A stretch of DNA of 64,000 bases from positions 1 through 64,000 of the forward strand of contig NZ_JAWDKA010000005.1 in assembly GCF_032714615.1 (NCBI RefSeq), written 5' to 3'. This stretch comes from Methanorbis furvi. Lineage in GTDB: Archaea > Halobacteriota > Methanomicrobia > Methanomicrobiales > Methanocorpusculaceae. A program made the translations under genes and the position numbers. Below are positions 16,026-56,420 of this stretch, piece after piece (the stretch's first letter is position 1; each line of letters begins with the position of its first letter). Under the pieces are notes generated by a model. That model saw nothing but the letters and a program-made list of their open reading frames with translations. It was not told the origin of the DNA and did not search any database.

Positions 16026-17090
16026 TCAGATAAACACCTGAACAGCAGTCGCCTTAAACGTCACCGCAACCGTCTGGCCGGTCGCAAGACCAAGTCTCTC
16101 AATACTCTGCTGCGTCACGGACGCTGCAAGTGGAATGCCGATATCCACATGCACAAGCCGGTAAAGTCCGGTATCCTCGATCTTTGTGATCATTCCTGTA
16201 AACGAGTTGATTGCACTCGACACAAACCGCTCGCGGGAGATGATTAACTCCTCAGGCCGGATGCCAACGCTCACCGTTCCGGAAAGTGCGGTAGCCGCAC
16301 GAATCTTCACGCCCCCAACATCCACACAGACAACTCCGCTGCGGTTGACCACGACCTTTCCCCGGAACAGATTCAGATTCTCCGAAAACGTCGACATAAA
16401 CCCGTTAATCGGATTATGAATCATCTCTTCCGGCAGACCTGACGCAACAATTCTGCCCCGCTCAATCACCGCAATACGGTTCGCAAACGAAAGAGCGTCG
16501 ACGAGTGAATGCGTCACCAGAATACAGGGGATCTGCTCAGCCCGGATAACGGACGCAAGCTCTCTTCGCATCTGTTCCTGCGTCCGAACATCAAGTGCAG
16601 AAAGCGGCTCATCCAAGAGCAGCAGCTCAGGCTTTGGTGCAAGAGCGCGGGCAAGTGCTGTCTTCTGGCGCTGACCACCTGACATCCTCGTCACCCGCTG
16701 ATCCGCAACCTCCGAAAGCCCCATCCGCTCGCAGAGTTCACCAACACGGGCATCGATATCAGTTTGTGACGCATTCTGCACTTTGAGGCCATATGCAATA
16801 TTCTCCTTCGCCGTCATATGCGGAAATAGCGCATAGTTCTGGAACATATACCCGATTCTGCGATCCTCGGGCGGCAGAAGAACGCGGGCATTTGAATCAT
16901 AGAGAGTGCGGCCGTTCAGCGAAATCTTTCCTGACGCAGGTTTTAGAATGCCGGAGAGAATTCGCAGAACCGTTGACTTACCTGCCCCGTTCTCCCCGAT
17001 CAAAGCAAGCGTTTCGCCATCTCTCACCGTGAAGTTTTCTACGTTCAGATCGAAATCACGAAGCTGCGCAGAAAACGATCCTTCAAGCAT
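16026..17090 (-). CDS. modC: Molybdate/tungstate ABC transporter ATP-binding protein
   Basis: The 354-residue ATPase has Walker A GENGAGKST, signature MSGGQRQK, Walker B LLLLDEPLSALD and a C-terminal TOBE-like domain (about 235-354) that in this family senses oxyanions. The start at 17090 is preferred over 17096 because AAAGGAGA then has a normal seven-base spacing. It overlaps the permease gene by 8 bases. With 17083-18733 it forms a complete ModABC importer. Confidence 0.92.
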   Translation of the reverse strand: MLEGSFSAQLRDFDLNVENFTVRDGETLALIGENGAGKSTVLRILSGILKPASGKISLNGRTLYDSNARVLLPPEDRRIGYMFQNYALFPHMTAKENIAYGLKVQNASQTDIDARVGELCERMGLSEVADQRVTRMSGGQRQKTALARALAPKPELLLLDEPLSALDVRTQEQMRRELASVIRAEQIPCILVTHSLVDALSFANRIAVIERGRIVASGLPEEMIHNPINGFMSTFSENLNLFRGKVVVNRSGVVCVDVGGVKIRAATALSGTVSVGIRPEELIISRERFVSSAINSFTGMITKIEDTGLYRLVHVDIGIPLAASVTQQSIERLGLATGQTVAVTFKATAVQVFI

Positions 17091-17904
17091 ACGCATTCTC
17101 CTTTCGCCCGATATACTTCACTGCCAAAATGATCGCGAACGAAAACACCACCAGAAGAATTGCCAGCGCAATCGAAACCGCCATATCACTTTGCAGCTCG
17201 CTGTAGATAGCGAGCGGCATCGTCTGGGTTTTTCCTTGAAAGTTTCCGGCAAACATCAGCGTCGCACCAAACTCGCCGAGAGCTCTGGCAAACGTCATGA
17301 TAATACCTGACAACAGCGAACTTGCCGCAAGCGGAAGCGTCACCTTGAAAAATGTTTGAATCGGTGTTGCTCCAAGCGTCCGTGAGGCCGCTTCATAGTT
17401 TGGATCCACCGCCTCAAAACTCGACCGCGCCTGACGAATGAAAAACGGCGACGCAACAAATATCTGGGCGATCACGACCGCAAGTGTCGTAAACGCAATC
17501 TGGATACCAAACACGTTCAGGTACTGGCCCAACAGACCGTTTCTCCCAAACGCCATCAGAAGTGCAAGACCTGCGACCGTTGGCGGCAAAACAATCGGCA
17601 GATCGGTTAAGGTATCAACAATATCCCGGCCGGGATACGAGTAACGGGCGTTCACATACGCAAGAGGCGTTCCGAGAATTACCACCACAATCGTACTGAA
17701 TGTTGCCGTGATCAAACTGAGTGAGAGGGCATCGCGTGCGAGAGGGCTGGAAAGAGCCGTGATGAAATCTTCCGGACTGACCCGCGTAAACAGCGAGACT
17801 AAGGGAATGGTAATAAAAATAAGAAACAGAAAGATGAGTCCGGCAACAATCGCTTTTGTTCCGATGCGGGAAGCGTGATGATGTTTTGTGCGTGCCTGAC
17901 TCAT
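17083..17904 (-). CDS. modB: Molybdate/tungstate ABC transporter permease
   Basis: The 273-residue membrane protein has six predicted helices and the EAA-type loop EAASRTLGATPIQTFFKVTLP near residues 160-180 that contacts the ATPase. The PLAYVNARYSYPGRD segment is typical of ModB/WtpB. It lies 16 bases after modA and overlaps modC, so the three are one operon. Confidence 0.92.
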   Translation of the reverse strand: MSQARTKHHHASRIGTKAIVAGLIFLFLIFITIPLVSLFTRVSPEDFITALSSPLARDALSLSLITATFSTIVVVILGTPLAYVNARYSYPGRDIVDTLTDLPIVLPPTVAGLALLMAFGRNGLLGQYLNVFGIQIAFTTLAVVIAQIFVASPFFIRQARSSFEAVDPNYEAASRTLGATPIQTFFKVTLPLAASSLLSGIIMTFARALGEFGATLMFAGNFQGKTQTMPLAIYSELQSDMAVSIALAILLVVFSFAIILAVKYIGRKENAYA

Positions 17905-17920: not shown

Positions 17921-18733
17921 TTATGCGGCTACCGGATCAAATCCGTAGTCCTTCAGAAGTGCGGTTCCAACAGGTCCCGTCATATAGGACTCGAATGCCT
18001 TCACTGCTTCAGGGTTTTTCGTTGTGTTGATGATACCGTACGGGTAGTCTGCAATTACATTGTAGTTGTCTGGGAGTTCAATTAAAGTGATATCATCTTT
18101 GTCTGCTTTGGAGATGTCAGACTTGTAGACAAGGGATGCATCTGCTTCGTCGAGGACAAGCAGCGGCTTGACTTTGTCGACTGCGTCAACTTCTGACTTT
18201 ACGTTTGCCATGAATGCGTCAACGTAGCCATCGTGACTGTCGTTCTGGTACTTGTTGATGATATCGCGGGTGTACTGGCCGAACGGAACATCTTTGTTAC
18301 CGATTACGAGCACGACGTTTTTTTCTGCCATGCCGGCAAGGTCAGTGATGTTCTTGCTGTTTGCTTTCGGGACAGCGATTGCGAGTTTGTTTTTGAGAAG
18401 GATCTTCTTCTCGCCAATGAGGCCTGCGTCAACAACCGGCGTGAACTGTGCGTTGTTTGCCGAGATGTAGAGATCAGCGTCAGCGCCTTCAAGAATCTGG
18501 GTCTTTAAGGTCTGGCTTCCGGCGAAGTTGAAGTTGACTTTGATGTTCTTGTTCTCTTCCATGAACTTGTTGCCGAGTTCTGTCATGACACCGGTCAGCG
18601 ATGCTGCGGCATAGACGTCGATTTCAACCGGTTGCTCTTCAGGAGTCGTTGTTCCGATACAGCCGGCCATGGCAACAGTCAGCACTACACACACCATCAG
18701 TGCTGTGAAAATGAAAGGTTTGTTCAGTCTCAT
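17921..18733 (-). CDS. modA: Molybdate/tungstate-binding lipoprotein
   Basis: The 270-residue protein has a lipoprotein signal peptide with a lipobox ending VAMAGC (Cys24), followed by the ModA core: VYAAASLTGVMTELG, FAGSQTLKTQILEGADADLYISA and a C-terminal PYGIINTTKNPEAVKAFESYM. Ser/Thr/Ala backbone positions in AASLTG and GSQ are those that hold the oxyanion in ModA. It delivers molybdate or tungstate to ModB. A separate tungstate system (TupABC) is at 53579, which suggests that this one serves molybdate or both. Confidence 0.9.
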   Translation of the reverse strand: MRLNKPFIFTALMVCVVLTVAMAGCIGTTTPEEQPVEIDVYAAASLTGVMTELGNKFMEENKNIKVNFNFAGSQTLKTQILEGADADLYISANNAQFTPVVDAGLIGEKKILLKNKLAIAVPKANSKNITDLAGMAEKNVVLVIGNKDVPFGQYTRDIINKYQNDSHDGYVDAFMANVKSEVDAVDKVKPLLVLDEADASLVYKSDISKADKDDITLIELPDNYNVIADYPYGIINTTKNPEAVKAFESYMTGPVGTALLKDYGFDPVAA

Positions 18734-18832: not shown

Positions 18833-20347
18833 TCAGGAGCGGGAGAGTTTTTTCCTGAACTCTGTTGAGTCTGCAAGTTCGAGCACAGTTTTCGTGAGAG
18901 GATCGTTCTCCATTTCTTTGCGGCAGACCAGAGTCGCATTTTTGGTGAGTTTCTTCTGCACAATTGGCAGGTCGCCGAGCACAGCGAGGTCGGCCGTGTC
19001 GGTGATACAGACGAGATGGCAGGCGTTCTTCAGCAGAAGCATGAGTCCTGAGAGTCCGTTGAAGTTGCCGGTTCTGATGCGGATGTCTTTTTTGACGGCA
19101 AGTTCGGTGAGCGCTTCGATTGCGGGATCATAGACACCTGCAATCAAAACGGTTCGGTCGAGTTCCTCGGTCGGGGCGGAGAGGAGGGCAGGCACAACTT
19201 CTCCTGCTTCAAATCCTTCGACACCGTACGGAATTCGTATGATCACATTCGACCGAACACCAGTCATCTGGACGCTTGCGCCCCGTGACTGAGGGATTGC
19301 AGCGTACTCGCTGCCGACTTTTGCTGCTGCGTGAAGACTGAACTCATCAATGCCGCCTTCGGATGAGATGGAGTCGCCGAGTCTGACGTTGATGGTCTTG
19401 TGTTCAGGTCCTTTCCATCCCCATGCTTCGAGCAGTTCGCGGACAAAAATGCGGAGAACAGTCTGGGCAGAGAGCGGGTAGCCGGGCAGTCCGAAGATCG
19501 GTTTCTTTCCGGCGATGCCAAGCATAGCAGGTTTTGCCGGTTTGACGGCGACACCGTGGAAGAGAAGTTCGCCGAGTTCGCCGATGACTTTTGCGGTGAA
19601 GTCTTTGGTGCCGGCAGAGGATCCGGCAGAGACGATAGCGATGTCGTTTTCTGAGAGAATTTTTTCGAGTGCGCCCCGGATGAGAACCGGGTTGTCGACG
19701 ACCGGAGGGTAGCGGATGACATCAACGCCGAACTGGCGGAGGTAGGATTCTGCCATGGTGGTGTTGCTTTCAACGACCTGACCGGGGGCCGGCCTCTCAC
19801 CCGGCATGATGAGTTCGTTGCCGGTCGGGAGGATTCCAACCGAGACGGATCTGACGCTGACATGCGTGAATCCATACGAGGCGATCGCGCCAATATCAAA
19901 TGGGCGGATGAGGGTTCCGGCAGGAAGGATGAGCTGACCTGCTTTGATGTCTTCGCCGACAGGCCGAACATTTGTTCCCGGGTTGACGGATTTCCGGATG
20001 GTGATTGCATCAGGATCGTCTCCGTCAAACCAGACATCTTCGACGCGGACGACTGCGTCGAACTCTTTGGGGATGACGTTTCCGGTGTTGACCCGTGCGA
20101 AATTTTTGAGGGAGAGCGGTGTCTGGTCACCTGCTTTGATAGTCTGCGATGATTTGACCGCAAAGCCGTCCATCGCAGATACCGGAACCTCGGGAACCGA
20201 GTACTCGGCGTAGAGGGACTGCGCGAGCCTGTGACCAACTGATTCAACGATCGGAACGCGGCGCACGGTGGTGTGCGGCGGGATGCTTCTGATGACCGCG
20301 AGTGCTTCGTCGACGGTTATCTGGTGTAGGTATCGTTTCATTGCCAT
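18833..20347 (-). CDS. moeA: MoeA paralogue with short periplasmic-binding-like C-terminal domain
   Basis: The 504-residue protein has a complete MoeA core (about 1-400): SAMDGFAV, PTGNELIMPGE, SAGSSAGTKDF and GLPGYPLSAQ. MoeA inserts molybdate or tungstate into adenylated molybdopterin. From about 400 a further 100 residues (LIAGVYDPAIEALTEL, GNFNGLSGLMLLLKNACHLVCITD) resemble the N-terminal lobe of the substrate-binding-like domain often fused to archaeal MoeA, but it is roughly half the usual size. The start at 20347 (MAMKRY) has GGAGG seven bases upstream. It overlaps the first moeA by 10 bases and is followed after 99 bases by modA. Confidence 0.9.
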   Translation of the reverse strand: MAMKRYLHQITVDEALAVIRSIPPHTTVRRVPIVESVGHRLAQSLYAEYSVPEVPVSAMDGFAVKSSQTIKAGDQTPLSLKNFARVNTGNVIPKEFDAVVRVEDVWFDGDDPDAITIRKSVNPGTNVRPVGEDIKAGQLILPAGTLIRPFDIGAIASYGFTHVSVRSVSVGILPTGNELIMPGERPAPGQVVESNTTMAESYLRQFGVDVIRYPPVVDNPVLIRGALEKILSENDIAIVSAGSSAGTKDFTAKVIGELGELLFHGVAVKPAKPAMLGIAGKKPIFGLPGYPLSAQTVLRIFVRELLEAWGWKGPEHKTINVRLGDSISSEGGIDEFSLHAAAKVGSEYAAIPQSRGASVQMTGVRSNVIIRIPYGVEGFEAGEVVPALLSAPTEELDRTVLIAGVYDPAIEALTELAVKKDIRIRTGNFNGLSGLMLLLKNACHLVCITDTADLAVLGDLPIVQKKLTKNATLVCRKEMENDPLTKTVLELADSTEFRKKLSRS

Positions 20348-21543
20348 AAGTGAACCTCCACGGTTTCGCCGGCTTCGCATCCGTCGAGGCCTGCGGGGAT
20401 GCGGATGTAGCCGTCGCTGTGAATGAGGGTGTTGAGGAGTCCGGATTTGCCAAGGACCGGCTCGGCGCTTCCGTCCGGTAATATTTTGATTCTGATCAGG
20501 TCTTCGCGTCCTTTTTCCGAGGGAAAACTCATGGAAAGTTTTGCAGGAACAATTCGGTCGCGGGTCTGGTCCCCGGTCATCTTCTGAATCATGGGTTTTG
20601 CAAAGACGGTTGCGATCATGTAGGTTGAGGCTGGGTGACCGGGGAGACCGAGGATGGGTTTACCGGATATTGAACCGATTATGGTTGGTTTGCCTGGCGC
20701 GATTGAGACGCCGTGGACGTGGATTGTGCCAAGTTCTGCGATGACGTTGGCGGTGACGTCGCGTTCGTCTTTGGAGCTGCCGCCGGAGAGGATGACTGCG
20801 TCGCACTCGGCCACTGCCCGTTCGAGAACGTTTTTGAGTGCTTCTGCAATGTCAGGGATGATTCCGTAGAACGCAGGAATCCCTCCTGCTTCAATGACGA
20901 AGGACTGGAGAAGGGTGCTGTTGGTGTCGCGGATTTTTCCAAGTTCGAGTTTTTCGTTTGGTGCTATGAGTTCGTTGCCGGTTGAGATGATACCGATTTT
21001 CGGTTGGCGGATGACGGGTACCGGATCGATACCAAATGCGGCGAGAACTCCTGCTGCCTGGGCGGTGAGTTTTGTTCCAGCTGGAAATATGTTCTGATCT
21101 TTGGCGAAGTCTTCGTCCTTACCAAGGACGTCTGCACCTGGGTTGACAGGGGTTTTGATCATGACGAGGTCGCCTGCGAGTTCGGCGCTTTCCTGCATGA
21201 CAACTGCGTCTGCACCCTCTGGCATAACTCCTCCGGTCGGGATGTATTTGGCGGTTTTTTCGTCAAGAAATCCTGAGTTGTTCTGGCCCATCAGGATTTT
21301 TCCGGTGAGTCTGAGAATTTTTGGTTTTTGTTCGGCTGCTCCGAGAGTGTCTGCGGAGCGGACGGCATAGCCGTCTTTGACTGAACGGTCAAATCCCGGG
21401 ATGTTTTCGGGGGCGGTGATTGAACAAGAGAGGATTCTGCCGCAGGTTTTGTCTAAGGGTATCAGTTCTTCGGGGAGAATTTTCGTGAGGGCGAGGAGTG
21501 CCTCCTCTGCTGCGGCTGCGGTTTGCAGCCTGAGAAATCTCAT
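20338..21543 (-). CDS. moeA: Molybdopterin molybdotransferase
   Basis: The 401-residue protein is a standard-length MoeA: PGFDRSVKDGYAVRSADT, MQESAEL, STGNELIAPNEKLELGKIRDTNS, LSGGSSKDERD and LGLPGHPAST are the family motifs. It catalyses metal insertion into the pterin. The start at 21543 forms ATGA with the stop of the small Cys-rich gene upstream. The second MoeA (18833-20347) is about 30-35% similar by eye; pairs of MoeA in archaea have been suggested to separate Mo from W, but that is inference here. Confidence 0.94.
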   Translation of the reverse strand: MRFLRLQTAAAAEEALLALTKILPEELIPLDKTCGRILSCSITAPENIPGFDRSVKDGYAVRSADTLGAAEQKPKILRLTGKILMGQNNSGFLDEKTAKYIPTGGVMPEGADAVVMQESAELAGDLVMIKTPVNPGADVLGKDEDFAKDQNIFPAGTKLTAQAAGVLAAFGIDPVPVIRQPKIGIISTGNELIAPNEKLELGKIRDTNSTLLQSFVIEAGGIPAFYGIIPDIAEALKNVLERAVAECDAVILSGGSSKDERDVTANVIAELGTIHVHGVSIAPGKPTIIGSISGKPILGLPGHPASTYMIATVFAKPMIQKMTGDQTRDRIVPAKLSMSFPSEKGREDLIRIKILPDGSAEPVLGKSGLLNTLIHSDGYIRIPAGLDGCEAGETVEVHLWQ

Positions 21544-21725
21544 TTGAAGCACCCGAATTTGCAGTGTTTGAATTTGATGTGTTCTATGTCGCAGTATTTG
21601 CCGATGTGGAAGGGATCGATCTGGTAGGTTTCGCAGATGGCTGAGGCTTGTTCACAAGTGATCTCAGAGGTGATACCTTCCTCTGCAAAGATGGATCTGA
21701 TCTTCTCTTTGGTTTCACTTTTCAT
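21540..21725 (-). CDS. Small five-cysteine protein, copy 1 (unnamed family)
   Basis: The 61-residue protein is not recognised. It has five cysteines in the pattern C-x6-C-x13-C-x9-C-x3-C followed by Phe-Lys at the end. A second copy of 63 residues at 53194-53385 keeps all five cysteines and the segments EITC, AIC, IDP, YC, HIK and FGCFK. It is the first gene of the moeA-moeA unit and its stop overlaps the moeA ATG by four bases. A TATA-like AATCATTATTTG upstream suggests a short leader. The context of both copies (moeA here, fdhA/tupABC there) suggests a role in Mo/W or pterin-enzyme handling, for instance metal or cluster binding. Confidence 0.85.
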   Translation of the reverse strand: MKSETKEKIRSIFAEEGITSEITCEQASAICETYQIDPFHIGKYCDIEHIKFKHCKFGCFK

Positions 21726-51164: not shown

Positions 51165-53201
51165 ATGAACCTGAAGTACGTTCCCACCACCTGCCCGTAC
51201 TGCGGTACTGGATGCAGTTTTTTTCTGGTTGTACGGGACGGCCGACTCGTCGGAGTCGCGCCCCGTTCCCGCTCGCCGGTCAATGAAGGAAAACTCTGTC
51301 CGCGGGGAATGGCTGCATGGGAGTTTGTGGCAAGTCCGGAGAGGCTGACACATCCACTCATCCGGAAAAACGGGGAACTTGTTCCCGCAACATGGAACGA
51401 AGCGATCACGCTGATTGCAGAAAAGTTCAGACAGTACCAACCGTCTGAGTGCTGTGTTCTCTCATCACCAAGAACATCCAACGAGGACAACTATGTGATG
51501 ATGAAGTTTGCCCGCGGTGTGTTGAAAACAAATCACATCGATCACTGCGAGAGATTGTGCCATGCATCCATCGTTGATTCACTCGCCGACTCGTTCGGTC
51601 ATCCGGCAATGACCGGCAGTATCCCGGATCTTGCCAAGGCAAAATGCATCTTTGTTATCGGATCAAATGCATTTGCCCAGCATCCGCTGATCGGCAGAAA
51701 AATTATTGAGGCACAAAGATCAGGCGCAACCTACATCTGTGCTGACCCGAGAAAAACATTCACCGGTTCGCAGGCAGACCTGCATCTCCAGTTCCATGCT
51801 GGAACCGACATCATGCTTCTCAATGGCATCATGCATGAGATTTTGCTGCAGAAACTGGAGAACACAGAGTTTATTGCAGAGCGAACGAACGGATTTGATG
51901 AGTTCAGAGAAATAATTCTGCAGCCCGAGTACTCCGCAGAAAATGTTGCCGAGAGTTGCGGGGTTCCGGCAGAAAAAATCCGGGCCACGGCAAAACTGAT
52001 GGCGCTGCCCGGCTGTGCGGTAATCTACTCGTCTGGTATCACCAAACAGGGAAACAGTGCAGAAAATATTCACAGTCTTGCAAACCTTCAGCTCCTGACA
52101 GGAAACGTCGGGCGAGCAGGCACCGGCGTACATCCTCTTCGCGGTCAGAACAATATTCAGGGCGCATGCGATATGGGAGCGCAGCCGTTCTACTTCACCG
52201 GCTATCAGCGCGTTGAAGATGCTGACGTCCACAAAAAATTCGAAGAAGCCTGGAGTTTTTCGGATGGCATTGCACCGGCAAAAACCGGTTACGAAATCAC
52301 CGAGATGATGGACTCCTTAATCTCAAAGAGTGGGGAGCTGAAGGCGATGTACATCATGGGGGAAAATCCGGTTCTCTCTGATCTTGACATCAATCATGCG
52401 AAGGCTGCCTTGGAACAGCTGGAGTTTCTGGTTGTGCAGGATATTTTTCTGAACGAAACCGCAGGCTTTGCGGATGTTGTGCTGCCGGCGGTCTGTTTTG
52501 CAGAGCGTGACGGAACCCAGACAAACACCGAGCGACGTGTTCAGCGCTGGCACAAAGCTTGTGAACCGCCGGGCGAAGCAAAAGCTGACTGGGAGATCAT
52601 CGCCTCCATTGCATCAGCGATGGGGTATGCAGAACAGTTTTCCTGGAAAACTTATGCTGAAGTGTTTGATGAACTTGCAAGCCTCACACCACCGTATGCA
52701 GGCATCAGCTATGACCGCCTCGCCTCAGCAGACAGCATTCAATGGCCGTGTCCATCAGGAGATCATTCGGGAACGCAGATTCTCTACACTGATACCTTCG
52801 CAACAGCTGACGGGCGTGCGGTGTTTCTGCCGGCAGTGCGGCAGATTGAGAACGAAAAAACTGATGAACAGTATCCGTTCCTGTTTACTACCGGCAGATG
52901 TATTTTTCACTGGGATACCGGCTCGATGACACGAAAAAGCAGCGCGGCAAACACGGGAAACTGGCTTGAGATAAATACTGCTGACGCGAAAAAGTTGGAG
53001 ATTTCCACAGGAGATTCAGTCCGCCTCATCACACATGATGCGGAAATTTCAGCAACTGCCCGCGTCACCGAAGAAATTCTGCCGGGTACCCTCTTCATGC
53101 CGTCGCATTATGTTGAGTTCACTACAAAAGAGCTGGTGCAAAATACGATGCCGACGCCTGGATGCGGCGGACGGTCGGCAAAAATTGAAAAAATTATTTG
53201 A
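51165..53201 (+). CDS. fdhA: Formate dehydrogenase alpha subunit without adjacent beta gene
   Basis: The 678-residue molybdopterin oxidoreductase has the [4Fe-4S] site CPYCGTGC (Cys10, 13, 17) plus Cys45 in KLCPRG, and the metal ligand Cys132 in CERLCHAS (cysteine, not selenocysteine). Pterin-binding segments such as NPVLSDLDINHAKAALEQLEF and FTTGRCIFHWDTGSMTR are present. It follows tfx by five bases and no fdhB follows; instead the small five-cysteine gene converges and overlaps by eight bases. Compared with the copy at 61724 it is 12 residues shorter and clearly diverged. It may share FdhB with the other set or use another partner. Confidence 0.92.
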   Translation: MNLKYVPTTCPYCGTGCSFFLVVRDGRLVGVAPRSRSPVNEGKLCPRGMAAWEFVASPERLTHPLIRKNGELVPATWNEAITLIAEKFRQYQPSECCVLSSPRTSNEDNYVMMKFARGVLKTNHIDHCERLCHASIVDSLADSFGHPAMTGSIPDLAKAKCIFVIGSNAFAQHPLIGRKIIEAQRSGATYICADPRKTFTGSQADLHLQFHAGTDIMLLNGIMHEILLQKLENTEFIAERTNGFDEFREIILQPEYSAENVAESCGVPAEKIRATAKLMALPGCAVIYSSGITKQGNSAENIHSLANLQLLTGNVGRAGTGVHPLRGQNNIQGACDMGAQPFYFTGYQRVEDADVHKKFEEAWSFSDGIAPAKTGYEITEMMDSLISKSGELKAMYIMGENPVLSDLDINHAKAALEQLEFLVVQDIFLNETAGFADVVLPAVCFAERDGTQTNTERRVQRWHKACEPPGEAKADWEIIASIASAMGYAEQFSWKTYAEVFDELASLTPPYAGISYDRLASADSIQWPCPSGDHSGTQILYTDTFATADGRAVFLPAVRQIENEKTDEQYPFLFTTGRCIFHWDTGSMTRKSSAANTGNWLEINTADAKKLEISTGDSVRLITHDAEISATARVTEEILPGTLFMPSHYVEFTTKELVQNTMPTPGCGGRSAKIEKII

Positions 53202-53385
53202 AGCAGCCAAACATACAGTTGCGAATTTTGATGTGCATGCTGCTGCAGTACGCACCAAATGACGAAGGATCAATATCATATTTTTTGCAGATCGCTTGGG
53301 CCTTCGGGCAGGTGATCTCGTTTTCGATTTTCTCAGCTGCAAGAGCCGCGCGGATACTTTCATCAGAACTTGTCGGCATATACAT
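53194..53385 (-). CDS. Small five-cysteine protein, copy 2 (unnamed family)
   Basis: The 63-residue protein is a clear homologue of 21540-21725: EITC, AIC, IDP, YC, HIK and a C-terminal FGCFK are shared, and the spacing C-x6-C-x13-C-x9-C-x3-C is identical. It has its own TATA-like element GTATAATTA (plus strand 53404-53412), about 20 bases from the ATG. The gene converges with fdhA and diverges from tupABC. Not recognised as any named family; soluble; likely metal- or cluster-binding. Confidence 0.85.
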   Translation of the reverse strand: MYMPTSSDESIRAALAAEKIENEITCPKAQAICKKYDIDPSSFGAYCSSMHIKIRNCMFGCFK

Positions 53386-53578
53386 ATCGTTAGGGGTTTT
53401 CTGGTATAATTACTCGCGGTTTTCGCACCAGAGAGATATTTGGCGTAATTTTATGCTGAAAATAAAAATAGATAAACAAAACAAAAAATGATATCAAACA
53501 TAGTTACCCAGGAGTATATACAGTTCATTAAATCAACTATACCTATTTTATCCAAGGAGCAACAAACGACTTAGTTCG

Positions 53579-54574
53579 ATGAAGAAATTATTACCTGTGT
53601 TTGGTATGGTTCTTCTGCTTGTCGCAGTAATTTTCGCTGCCGGGTGTGTGGGCACCGGCGACGATAGCGGCAACCAGACCGCAACCCCTACTACTTCTGT
53701 TCCGACCGCAACGCCGGACCAGCTGAAGATCGCAACGACCACGTCCCTGTACGATACCGGACTCCTTGACTCTGTTCAGGATTACTACCTTGACACCTAC
53801 AATGTTGATCTCCTGATCACATCACAGGGTACTGGTAAAGCAATTCAGTCCGCAAAGAACGGCGATGTTGATGTTCTCTTAGTCCACGCTCCGGCGCAGG
53901 AAGCAGAGTTCATGGACTCCGGCTACGGTGTTAACCACCGCGGTGTTGCTTACAACTACTTCGTAATTGTCGGCCCTGAGTCTGACCCTGCAGGAATCAA
54001 AAACATGACTCCTGAAGAAGGTCTCACCACCCTCAAGAACCTTGGCGAGGCTGGCGACGAGTCCATCATCTTTGTCTCCCGCGGCGACAACTCCGGAACT
54101 CACTCCGCAGAAAAAGCCATCTGGGCAGCAGCAGGACTCAACTACACCGCAGAAGTCAGCGGCAACCCGGGCAGCTGGTACGTTGAGACCGGCTCTGGAA
54201 TGGGTGACACCCTGACCGTTGCCGGACAGAAACAGGCATACACCCTGACCGACGAAGCAACGTTCCTGACCTACAAGAAGAACAACAACCTCCAGCTTGT
54301 TCCGATCATCGATGAAGGCGAGACACTTCTGAACCGCTACACCATCATCACGATCAACCCGGAGAAGTTCCCGAACACCAACGTTGTCGCTGCAACCGAC
54401 TTCACCAACTGGCTCATCTCTGCTGACGGTCAGAAGTTTATCGGCGACTACGGCAAAGAGGTCTATGGAAAATCCCTGTTCAGCCCGATGGTAACACTCG
54501 CTGACAGCACCCTTCCGCCGTTCAACATCGACAGCACCACTGCGGTAACTGTCCCGACTGTTGCAACCGCGTAA
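53579..54574 (+). CDS. tupA: Tungstate-binding lipoprotein
   Basis: The 331-residue protein has a lipobox ending AAGC (Cys22), a Thr/Pro-rich linker, and the TupA signature IATTTSLYDTGLLDSVQDYY with TSQGTGKAIQSAKNGDVDVLLVHAP. The TTTS motif is the tungstate-contacting part in TupA. A C-terminal Thr/Pro-rich tail (TLPPFNIDSTTAVTVPTVATA) is longer than usual. It feeds TupB and TupC downstream. A TATA box AGTATATAC stands at 53512-53520. Confidence 0.93.
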   Translation: MKKLLPVFGMVLLLVAVIFAAGCVGTGDDSGNQTATPTTSVPTATPDQLKIATTTSLYDTGLLDSVQDYYLDTYNVDLLITSQGTGKAIQSAKNGDVDVLLVHAPAQEAEFMDSGYGVNHRGVAYNYFVIVGPESDPAGIKNMTPEEGLTTLKNLGEAGDESIIFVSRGDNSGTHSAEKAIWAAAGLNYTAEVSGNPGSWYVETGSGMGDTLTVAGQKQAYTLTDEATFLTYKKNNNLQLVPIIDEGETLLNRYTIITINPEKFPNTNVVAATDFTNWLISADGQKFIGDYGKEVYGKSLFSPMVTLADSTLPPFNIDSTTAVTVPTVATA

Positions 54575-54619: not shown

Positions 54620-55330
54620 ATGGACGATATTATCAATGGCGTCACTGAGGCAATTCATCTGATTATCACCATGGACCCTGAGGTCATGGAGATAGCGCAG
54701 CGAAGCCTGACGGTGTCATCGGAAGCTACGCTTATTGCTGCATTGATTGCAATTCCTCTCGGCGCTGCGATTTACTACTTTACCTTTCGGGGAAAACGTG
54801 TCGTGATTGGAACAATTCAGACTCTGTATGCACTGCCGACCGTTCTTGTGGGACTTCTCGTGTATCTGCTGGTTTCAAACTCTGGACCATTGGGCGGACT
54901 CAGGTTTCTATACACAACGAACGCCATGGTTTTGGCACAGGTGCTTTTAGTCATTCCAATCATTGCCGGTCTCACAATTGCAGGACTTTCGAGTCTTGAC
55001 AAGGAGATGAAGTACACCATTCAGTCGCTGAACGCAAATGCAGTACAGGCGATCATCACCCTCTGCCGTGAAGCAAAGTTTGCCATTCTTTCCGGTGTTA
55101 TGCTTGCGTTTGGCAGAGCGATCGCAGAAGTCGGTGCGGTGATGATGGTTGGAGGAAACATTCGCCACTTCACGCGAACGTTAACGACAGCGATTTCACT
55201 CAACACTTCGATGGGCGAGTTTGCCACATCGATTGCTCTTGGAATTATTCTTTTGTCGATTGCGTTGATCGTCAACTTTGCGATGAACATAATTCAGAAC
55301 TGGCACTCGGGAGGACAGAAGGATGTCTGA
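54620..55330 (+). CDS. tupB: Tungstate ABC transporter permease
   Basis: The 236-residue membrane protein has five or six helices and the EAA-like loop KYTIQSLNANAVQAIITLCREAKFAILSGVMLAFGRAIAEVGAVMMVGGNI, a strong TupB segment. It lies 45 bases after tupA and overlaps tupC by eight bases. Confidence 0.93.
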   Translation: MDDIINGVTEAIHLIITMDPEVMEIAQRSLTVSSEATLIAALIAIPLGAAIYYFTFRGKRVVIGTIQTLYALPTVLVGLLVYLLVSNSGPLGGLRFLYTTNAMVLAQVLLVIPIIAGLTIAGLSSLDKEMKYTIQSLNANAVQAIITLCREAKFAILSGVMLAFGRAIAEVGAVMMVGGNIRHFTRTLTTAISLNTSMGEFATSIALGIILLSIALIVNFAMNIIQNWHSGGQKDV

Positions 55331-56420
55331 GACACAACCTGTGGTGGAGCTTGCAAACATCAGCCGCGTCTACGGAGAAAAGTATGCACTCAATGAGGTG
55401 AGTTTTTCTGTACAACGCGGAGAGATTGTTGCGGTGATCGGTCCTTCGGGCGCAGGCAAAAGTACGCTGATGCGTATCTGCGATATGCTTGAAGAGCAGA
55501 GCAGCGGAGATCTTACGCTGTTTCAAACAGTGGTTGAAAAGAAAACCCGCAAATCCCTTCGTGAACGTGTGGGTATTCTGTTTCAGAAGACCGTACTGTT
55601 CGACCGCAGTGTTTCTGACAATGTGGCGCTCGGCCTTCAGTATCGCGGGTACAGACATGAAGAGATCCAGCGGCTGACTATTGAGTATCTCAAAAAACTC
55701 GGGATGGAAACATATGCGGACCGCAACGCACGTACTCTCTCCGGCGGCGAAGGACAGAGGATTGCGTTTGCCCGCGTGCTGCTGACGGGACCTGAACTTC
55801 TTCTTCTGGATGAGCCAACCGCAAACCTTGATCCTCTGGCAACCAGAATGATCGAGGAGATGATCAAAACAGAGAATGCGGAACACAACACGACGATCAT
55901 TCTCAACACGCATGATCAGAATCAGGGCATGAGACTTGCCGACCGGATTATTGTTTTAATGAATGGGAAAGTGATGCAGATTGGAACACCTGATGAGGTG
56001 TTCTATCATCCGTCAACTGAAGAGGTTGCTGCGTTTGTCGGGTTCCAGAATCTGATCTCTGGAACCGTCACAAAAATTCAGAGCGGTGTTGCAGAGATGA
56101 CAACTGCTGCGGGAATATTCCGCGTTCAGGCAGGGGACGCACACGTCGGCGATGCCGCGACACTTGCTCTTCGCGGCGAAGAAATTCTCGTGCACAACGC
56201 AGGTGTTCCTTTTGAAAAAGATCCGGAGAACAGTGTTTGTGGTGCCATTCTTTCATCACAGAAGATCGGGCCGGTAATGGAACTTGTCGTTGACTGCACC
56301 ATTCCGATCACCGTTGTTGTTCCGGCACGCCACCGGTTTGCCGAAGAGTTTGTGCCGGGAACTCCGGTGTGTCTCTCCTGGCTGACGGCCGCAGCCCATC
56401 TGATTTCCCAGACCAGATAG
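55323..56420 (+). CDS. tupC: Tungstate ABC transporter ATP-binding protein
   Basis: The 365-residue ATPase has Walker A GPSGAGKST, signature LSGGEGQRIAFAR, Walker B LLLLDEPTANLDP and a C-terminal TOBE-like domain (about 240-365) with MELVVDCTIPITVVVPA. It powers TupB. The extra C-terminal domain suggests sensing of the oxyanion. The next gene (fwdD) is 718 bases away. Confidence 0.93.
   Translation: MSETQPVVELANISRVYGEKYALNEVSFSVQRGEIVAVIGPSGAGKSTLMRICDMLEEQSSGDLTLFQTVVEKKTRKSLRERVGILFQKTVLFDRSVSDNVALGLQYRGYRHEEIQRLTIEYLKKLGMETYADRNARTLSGGEGQRIAFARVLLTGPELLLLDEPTANLDPLATRMIEEMIKTENAEHNTTIILNTHDQNQGMRLADRIIVLMNGKVMQIGTPDEVFYHPSTEEVAAFVGFQNLISGTVTKIQSGVAEMTTAAGIFRVQAGDAHVGDAATLALRGEEILVHNAGVPFEKDPENSVCGAILSSQKIGPVMELVVDCTIPITVVVPARHRFAEEFVPGTPVCLSWLTAAAHLISQTR

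Follow-up and report, generated by a model that had tools for sequence, protein, structure and literature searches.

Two mini-proteins encoded in a stretch of archaeal DNA of 64,000 nucleotides (the window) were found to belong to an uncatalogued protein family, whose membership of the molybdenum/tungsten (Mo/W) cofactor pathway is well supported by operon structure, gene fusion, an associated riboswitch and co-occurrence across genomes. The family lies inside a known class of Mo/W cofactor genes and represents no new kind of system. With moderate confidence we take the mini-protein to be a small winged-helix-like, cysteine-bearing accessory of molybdate or tungstate insertion, working with MoeA/MobB.

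Copy 1 (61 amino acids, 21540..21725) and copy 2 (63 amino acids, 53194..53385) both lie on the minus strand, a point absent from the earlier sequence-only reading of this DNA; that reading had correctly given their lengths, the spacing C-x6-C-x13-C-x9-C-x3-C and the FGCFK end, all of which are present in both ORFs. The two copies share 51% identity, and their likeness is not due to chance, because it gave E = 5e-23 in the pairwise comparison and 7e-17 in the whole-genome search. The latter found exactly these two copies in the source genome, and both ORFs are real genes. The translational coupling of copy 1 to moeA, also claimed earlier, was seen as a 4-nt overlap, ATGA (21540..21543, minus strand), which contains the TGA stop of copy 1 and the moeA start. 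This moeA (20338..21543, minus strand), whose start was set at ATG 21543 rather than at GTG 21552 of the mechanical ORF, is of the canonical type according to its Pfam domains (MoeA_N, MoCF and MoeA_C) and the MoeA tree. A second moeA (18833..20380, minus strand) was identified by Pfam and NCBIfam searches; its product has 515 amino acids and no PBP-like match, and the orthologues of about 620-650 amino acids have a C-terminal PBP-like domain. The operon of copy 1 appears to run on, on the same strand, into modABC-type transporter genes, namely those for a modA-type molybdate-binding protein located 3' of the second moeA (17921..18733; TIGR01256, over cutoff), a modB-type permease (17083..17904; TIGR02141 and TIGR01581, over cutoff) and a modC/wtpC-type ATPase with a TOBE domain (16026..17096; profile match).

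Copy 2 had been described as sitting between fdhA and tupABC, which is right as to position, but its orientation is opposite to both. It is convergent with fdhA (51165..53201, plus strand; TIGR01591, over cutoff), with an 8-nt overlap at the 3' ends, and divergent from tupA, with a gap of 193 nt between the two starts (53386..53578). The tup genes, all on the plus strand, encode a tupA-type tungstate-binding protein (53579..54574; NF041772, E 3e-59, under the curated cutoff), a tupB-type permease (54620..55330; NF041773, E 4e-58, under the curated cutoff) and a tupC-type ATPase (55323..56420; NCBIfam search). Lying near tupABC, fdhA and fwd genes, copy 2 appears to occupy a tungsten side of the window, as against a molybdenum side for copy 1. 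An Rfam scan of the window gave no match.

The archaeal searches covered the window's phylum, where the profile detected members across the whole of the window's order; no convincing match came from the rest of the phylum, the best there having an E-value of 0.005 and internal stops. In the window's class, members were present in 178 of 199 genomes, 130 of the 135 good ones, and in 36 of 37 genera. The restriction to archaea implied by the sequence-only reading did not survive, the family being widespread in bacteria. Bacterial members were sought with a DNA pattern for G[IVM]K[IVM]xxCQLGxFG (random expectation estimated at less than one match); the bacterial CQLGxFG motif served only for the design of the pattern and was afterwards tested by profile. 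A total of 23 genome contigs were matched, all bacterial, from Clostridia, Sporomusa, Symbiobacterium, Chloroflexi, Planctomycetota, Bipolaricaulota and deltaproteobacteria. Profiles built from the archaeal and the bacterial members recognized each other reciprocally (E between about 1e-10 and 4e-17 for a database of 100,000), and a joint profile matched 113 of 299 genomes in the phylum of Sporomusa and 120 of 247 in the phylum of HGW-Deltaproteobacteria-15 (the deltaproteobacterial phylum below). Two main forms were distinguished, a stand-alone domain ending in CQLGCF and a tandem protein whose first domain ends in CQLGLFG. The tblastn search of plasmids returned only chance matches, in hypB; no member was confirmed in the viral collection, and two viral pattern matches were rejected as chance, being antisense to a phage gene.

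The earlier statement that the pattern belongs to no described family was borne out, as Pfam, NCBIfam and PDB sequence searches with single sequences and profiles gave nothing credible for the mini-proteins, and no paper describing the family was found in the literature. Among the profiles looked for, the P-loop GTPase domain PF03205 had no match in the stand-alone mini-proteins, HTH_1 and TOBE had none in the mini-proteins in Pfam or NCBIfam, and FeoC had no Pfam match at E up to 1 with the copies or up to 10 in the profile search.

Gene neighbourhoods tie the family to Mo/W genes strongly in two lineages and weakly in a third, so that the link proposed earlier stood for the methanogen order (46/48 loci) and the phylum of Sporomusa (40/40) and failed in the deltaproteobacterial phylum, where Mo/W genes are a minority among the neighbours. 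Among the archaea, moeA lies directly downstream in 48 of 61 loci, and in 46 of the 48 outside the source genus. In these methanogen loci the mini-gene mostly overlaps moeA, with a second moeA after it, and the estimated distance between mini-gene and moeA is -19 to +34 nt in 46 of the 48. Twelve of the 13 loci of the source genus adjoin moeA, fdhA/fdhB or fwdBAC: six are convergent with fdhA (copy 2 included), three come after fwdBAC, one is beside fdhB-fdhA and two precede moeA, the remaining one having no such neighbour. In the phylum of Sporomusa, all 40 sampled loci, picked by sequence alone, are in Moco operons of the type moeA-moeA(-moaA) or with moaA; 35 have moeA within 300 nt, two have moeA one gene further on and three adjoin moaA directly. 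Of 13 stand-alone loci from the pattern scan, 12 were near moeA, tup, MobB-like, FdhD, MoaD-like or AOR genes. Members in other bacterial phyla have among their neighbours tupABC and the genes for MoaD-like, MobB-like and FdhD proteins, aldehyde ferredoxin oxidoreductase and MoaA.

The deltaproteobacterial loci (n=20) were different. Two of them directly adjoin Mo/W genes (fdhD, in one case followed by moeA-moeA), two more have tup or AOR genes within five genes, and a universal Mo/W role is thereby weakened. In five loci the mini-gene is followed by a radical SAM gene and a gene for a BcrAD/DUF2229 activase of 1391-1395 amino acids, which suggests another use of the domain, and three adjoin MBL-fold and MrpORP-type ATPase genes; ORP-type systems bind a Mo-Cu cluster. 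The remaining loci have unrelated neighbours. Six tandem two-domain loci, read by eye, have neighbours seemingly without relation to Mo/W (ACT domain, CoA ligase, threonine dehydratase-like and cytochrome genes).

Three further lines of evidence concern the pathway itself. Firstly, of 28 stand-alone loci examined in the phylum of Sporomusa, 17 have a same-strand RF01055 Moco/Wco riboswitch, a class described in PMC2408646, just upstream; none was found upstream of the mini-gene in the 12 deltaproteobacterial loci tested. Secondly, in five proteins of 192-217 amino acids, which are among the weaker family matches, the mini-protein domain forms the C-terminal part of a MobB-like P-loop protein (TIGR00176, E 2e-4 to 5e-10, under the curated cutoff); three of the five genes lie directly before moeA, one of these three also after tup genes. 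Thirdly, among 299 genomes of the phylum of Sporomusa, counted regardless of kinship, MoeA was present in 111 of 113 genomes with the family and in 92 of the 186 others (Fisher p about 3e-22), and a TupA-type protein in 95 of 113 and 51 of 186, respectively (p about 2e-22).

In the MoeA tree, the canonical MoeA of the methanogens groups with the MoeA of the bacterial operon (SH-aLRT 99), and both second-MoeA groups are set apart from the rest (SH-aLRT 100); the two MoeA found in other Halobacteriota fall elsewhere in the tree. The grouping of methanogen and bacterial operon MoeA implies that mini-gene and operon share a history, and this points to horizontal transfer. The branching together of MoeA from Methanomicrobiales and some anaerobic bacteria is noted in PMC11733289, where horizontal transfer is proposed. 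Transfer from bacteria to methanogens, the reverse of the direction suggested there, would fit the wide bacterial spread of the family and its absence from other Halobacteriota.

Conservation within the family is uneven. All five cysteines, previously regarded as strictly kept, are retained only inside the source genus; four are kept in the archaeal relatives (C1, C3, C4 and C5), three in stand-alone bacterial members and two in all forms. Outside the source genus, nearly all relatives have Ser, Ala or Thr in place of C2, and C3, in a YC pair, is kept in the archaeal order and absent from most bacterial members. Of 131 stand-alone members, 129 retain C1, C4 and C5; the other two are decayed copies within the source genus, where some second copies have acquired stop codons or lost the tail. 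C5 is replaced by Leu, Ala or Thr in many tandem domains and by Leu or Ile in the MobB-fused forms, leaving C1, C4, G58 and F60 (copy-1 numbering) invariant in all forms. The family ending is of the type IKIxxCQLGCF, and conservation peaks in this KI..CQLGCF tail. A fixed four- or five-cysteine site in one chain was rejected, as C2 and C3 vary and C5 also varies in tandem and fused forms; the loss of C5 in many tandem domains and in the fused forms makes a fixed one-chain four-cysteine site unlikely.

AlphaFold2 predicted helix-strand-helix-turn-helix-strand for copy 1 (mean pLDDT 82.6, pTM 0.59) and the same fold twice for a tandem protein (mean pLDDT 79.0, pTM 0.48), the two models agreeing on a topology that resembles a winged helix without the wing. 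In the model, each of the two short strands is immediately followed by a cysteine, C1 in one case and C4 in the other, and C5 comes four residues after C4; C1 and C4 could thus be near each other in space. Foldseek comparison of the single-domain and tandem models with the PDB gave no match at E < 0.001, and weaker matches (FtsK gamma, other winged helices and the N-terminal helices of NuoE/FdsG) were not counted as evidence.

The accessory that we favour would act late in molybdopterin cofactor assembly, in the final steps that are specific to the metal. It may bind MoeA and/or MobB and use its conserved thiolates to hold a small cluster or an ion, the site probably being shared between the subunits of a dimer or, in the tandem and MobB-fused forms, between two domains; the ion or cluster so held would help in molybdate or tungstate insertion or in the selection of the metal. 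Binding of a metal, an Fe-S cluster or an oxyanion, and a role as chaperone, as suggested in the sequence-only reading, may thus apply to the mini-protein. With copy 1 by moeA-moeA-modABC and copy 2 by tupABC, fdhA and fwd, the two copies in the window may serve the two metals. A role beside MoeA/MobB is favoured because conservation centres on the KI..CQLGCF tail and not on the would-be DNA-reading helix, and because the bacterial operon already has a cofactor-sensing riboswitch. Against it, many MoeA-bearing genomes lack the family, including those of other Halobacteriota, so that the cofactor is evidently made there without the mini-protein, and the predicted wHTH-like fold would be compatible with DNA binding as well.

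The main rival, a minimal winged-helix DNA-binding regulator whose cysteines sense Mo/W, cofactor or redox state and which controls moeA, tup and itself, is in our judgement rather unlikely, although several observations agree with it. The predicted core is helix-strand-HTH-strand, weak Foldseek matches include winged helices, the mini-gene heads its operon, copy 2 is divergent from tupABC, and a 13-nt block, AGTAAATCCTATC, does not vary among 16 species of one genus, the only genus in which such a conserved element was found; it stands a few tens of nt before the mini-gene, in most of these species inside the inverted repeat GATAG-N6-CTATC. This upstream element was, however, not found in the window's genome, and there was no sign of an operator regulon: ATAGTAAANNCTAT occurs once per genome, at the mini-gene only, in four of seven genomes from that genus, the other three having at least one mismatch to it, and exact matches in that genus were confined to the mini-gene, with one unrelated match in a genome of another genus. 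Moreover, the would-be DNA-reading helix is close to neutral, with a mean charge of +0.1 in bacteria and +0.6 in archaea, the strongest conservation is in the tail, no structural match reached E < 0.001, the operon in the phylum of Sporomusa is already under riboswitch control at 17 of 28 loci, and fusion to a MobB-like GTPase better fits an enzyme partner.

The deltaproteobacterial members beside radical SAM and 2-hydroxyacyl-CoA dehydratase activase genes or MrpORP/MBL genes, together with some tandem forms that have unrelated neighbours, would be expected if the domain were a general thiol or Fe-S module of several anaerobic systems, with Moco assembly merely its commonest setting. We consider this improbable, as the single-domain branch is almost exclusively linked to Mo/W in two distant lineages, with the riboswitch and the MobB fusion. 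A mere passenger role in the operon, for instance as a leader peptide that does nothing as a protein, would agree with the small size and the translational coupling to moeA, but is very unlikely because of the fusions and the distant conservation, residues being kept across bacteria and archaea and the domain occurring in stand-alone copies far from moeA and in tandem and fused versions.

Beyond the accessory role, we tentatively put forward a broader account, possible though doubtful as a whole, in which the mini-protein would be an overlooked, widespread component of Mo/W cofactor assembly that decides or assists the choice of metal with MoeA/MobB, moved as one operon with the MoeA pair between anaerobic bacteria and Methanomicrobiales, and was duplicated here into Mo-side and W-side copies. 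A conserved gene that heads a moeA pair, stands behind a riboswitch and is fused to a MobB-like protein offers a specific target for the study of how anaerobes and methanogens choose between Mo and W and of what MoeA pairs need for that choice; it also marks an operon apparently common to bacteria and Methanomicrobiales, and the family merits a model in the annotation libraries, which have none at present.

Several known systems resemble the mini-protein in part. MobB (PF03205/TIGR00176) is the GTP-binding adaptor of molybdopterin dinucleotide synthesis. MobB and the MobB/FeS-domain fusions (PRK14494) belong to the same pathway, and the mini-protein domain is fused C-terminally to, or encoded beside, MobB-like proteins; it has, however, no P-loop or GTPase domain and is not homologous to MobB. 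FeoC, whose gene accompanies a metal-handling system, is a very small protein of winged-helix fold that carries a cluster of cysteines. The mini-protein is likewise tiny, winged-helix-like by prediction, cysteine-bearing and encoded beside metal-handling genes, but it has no FeoC Pfam match and its cysteines are spread over the fold instead of being in the wing loop. ModE and other Mo/W-responsive regulators also adjoin Mo/W genes and have an HTH-like core, which in the mini-protein is predicted, whereas the mini-protein has no HTH_1 or TOBE match and no oxyanion-binding domain. MoeA pairs of which one member has a PBP-like domain are treated in PMC11733289, whose passages on such pairs do not mention the small gene, and the mini-gene sits before exactly such a contiguous pair. 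At one locus a separate HTH_1 protein gene adjoins the mini-gene, and a SECIS_3 selenocysteine insertion element was recorded in a formate dehydrogenase region upstream of one mini-gene operon (locus positions 1196-1254).
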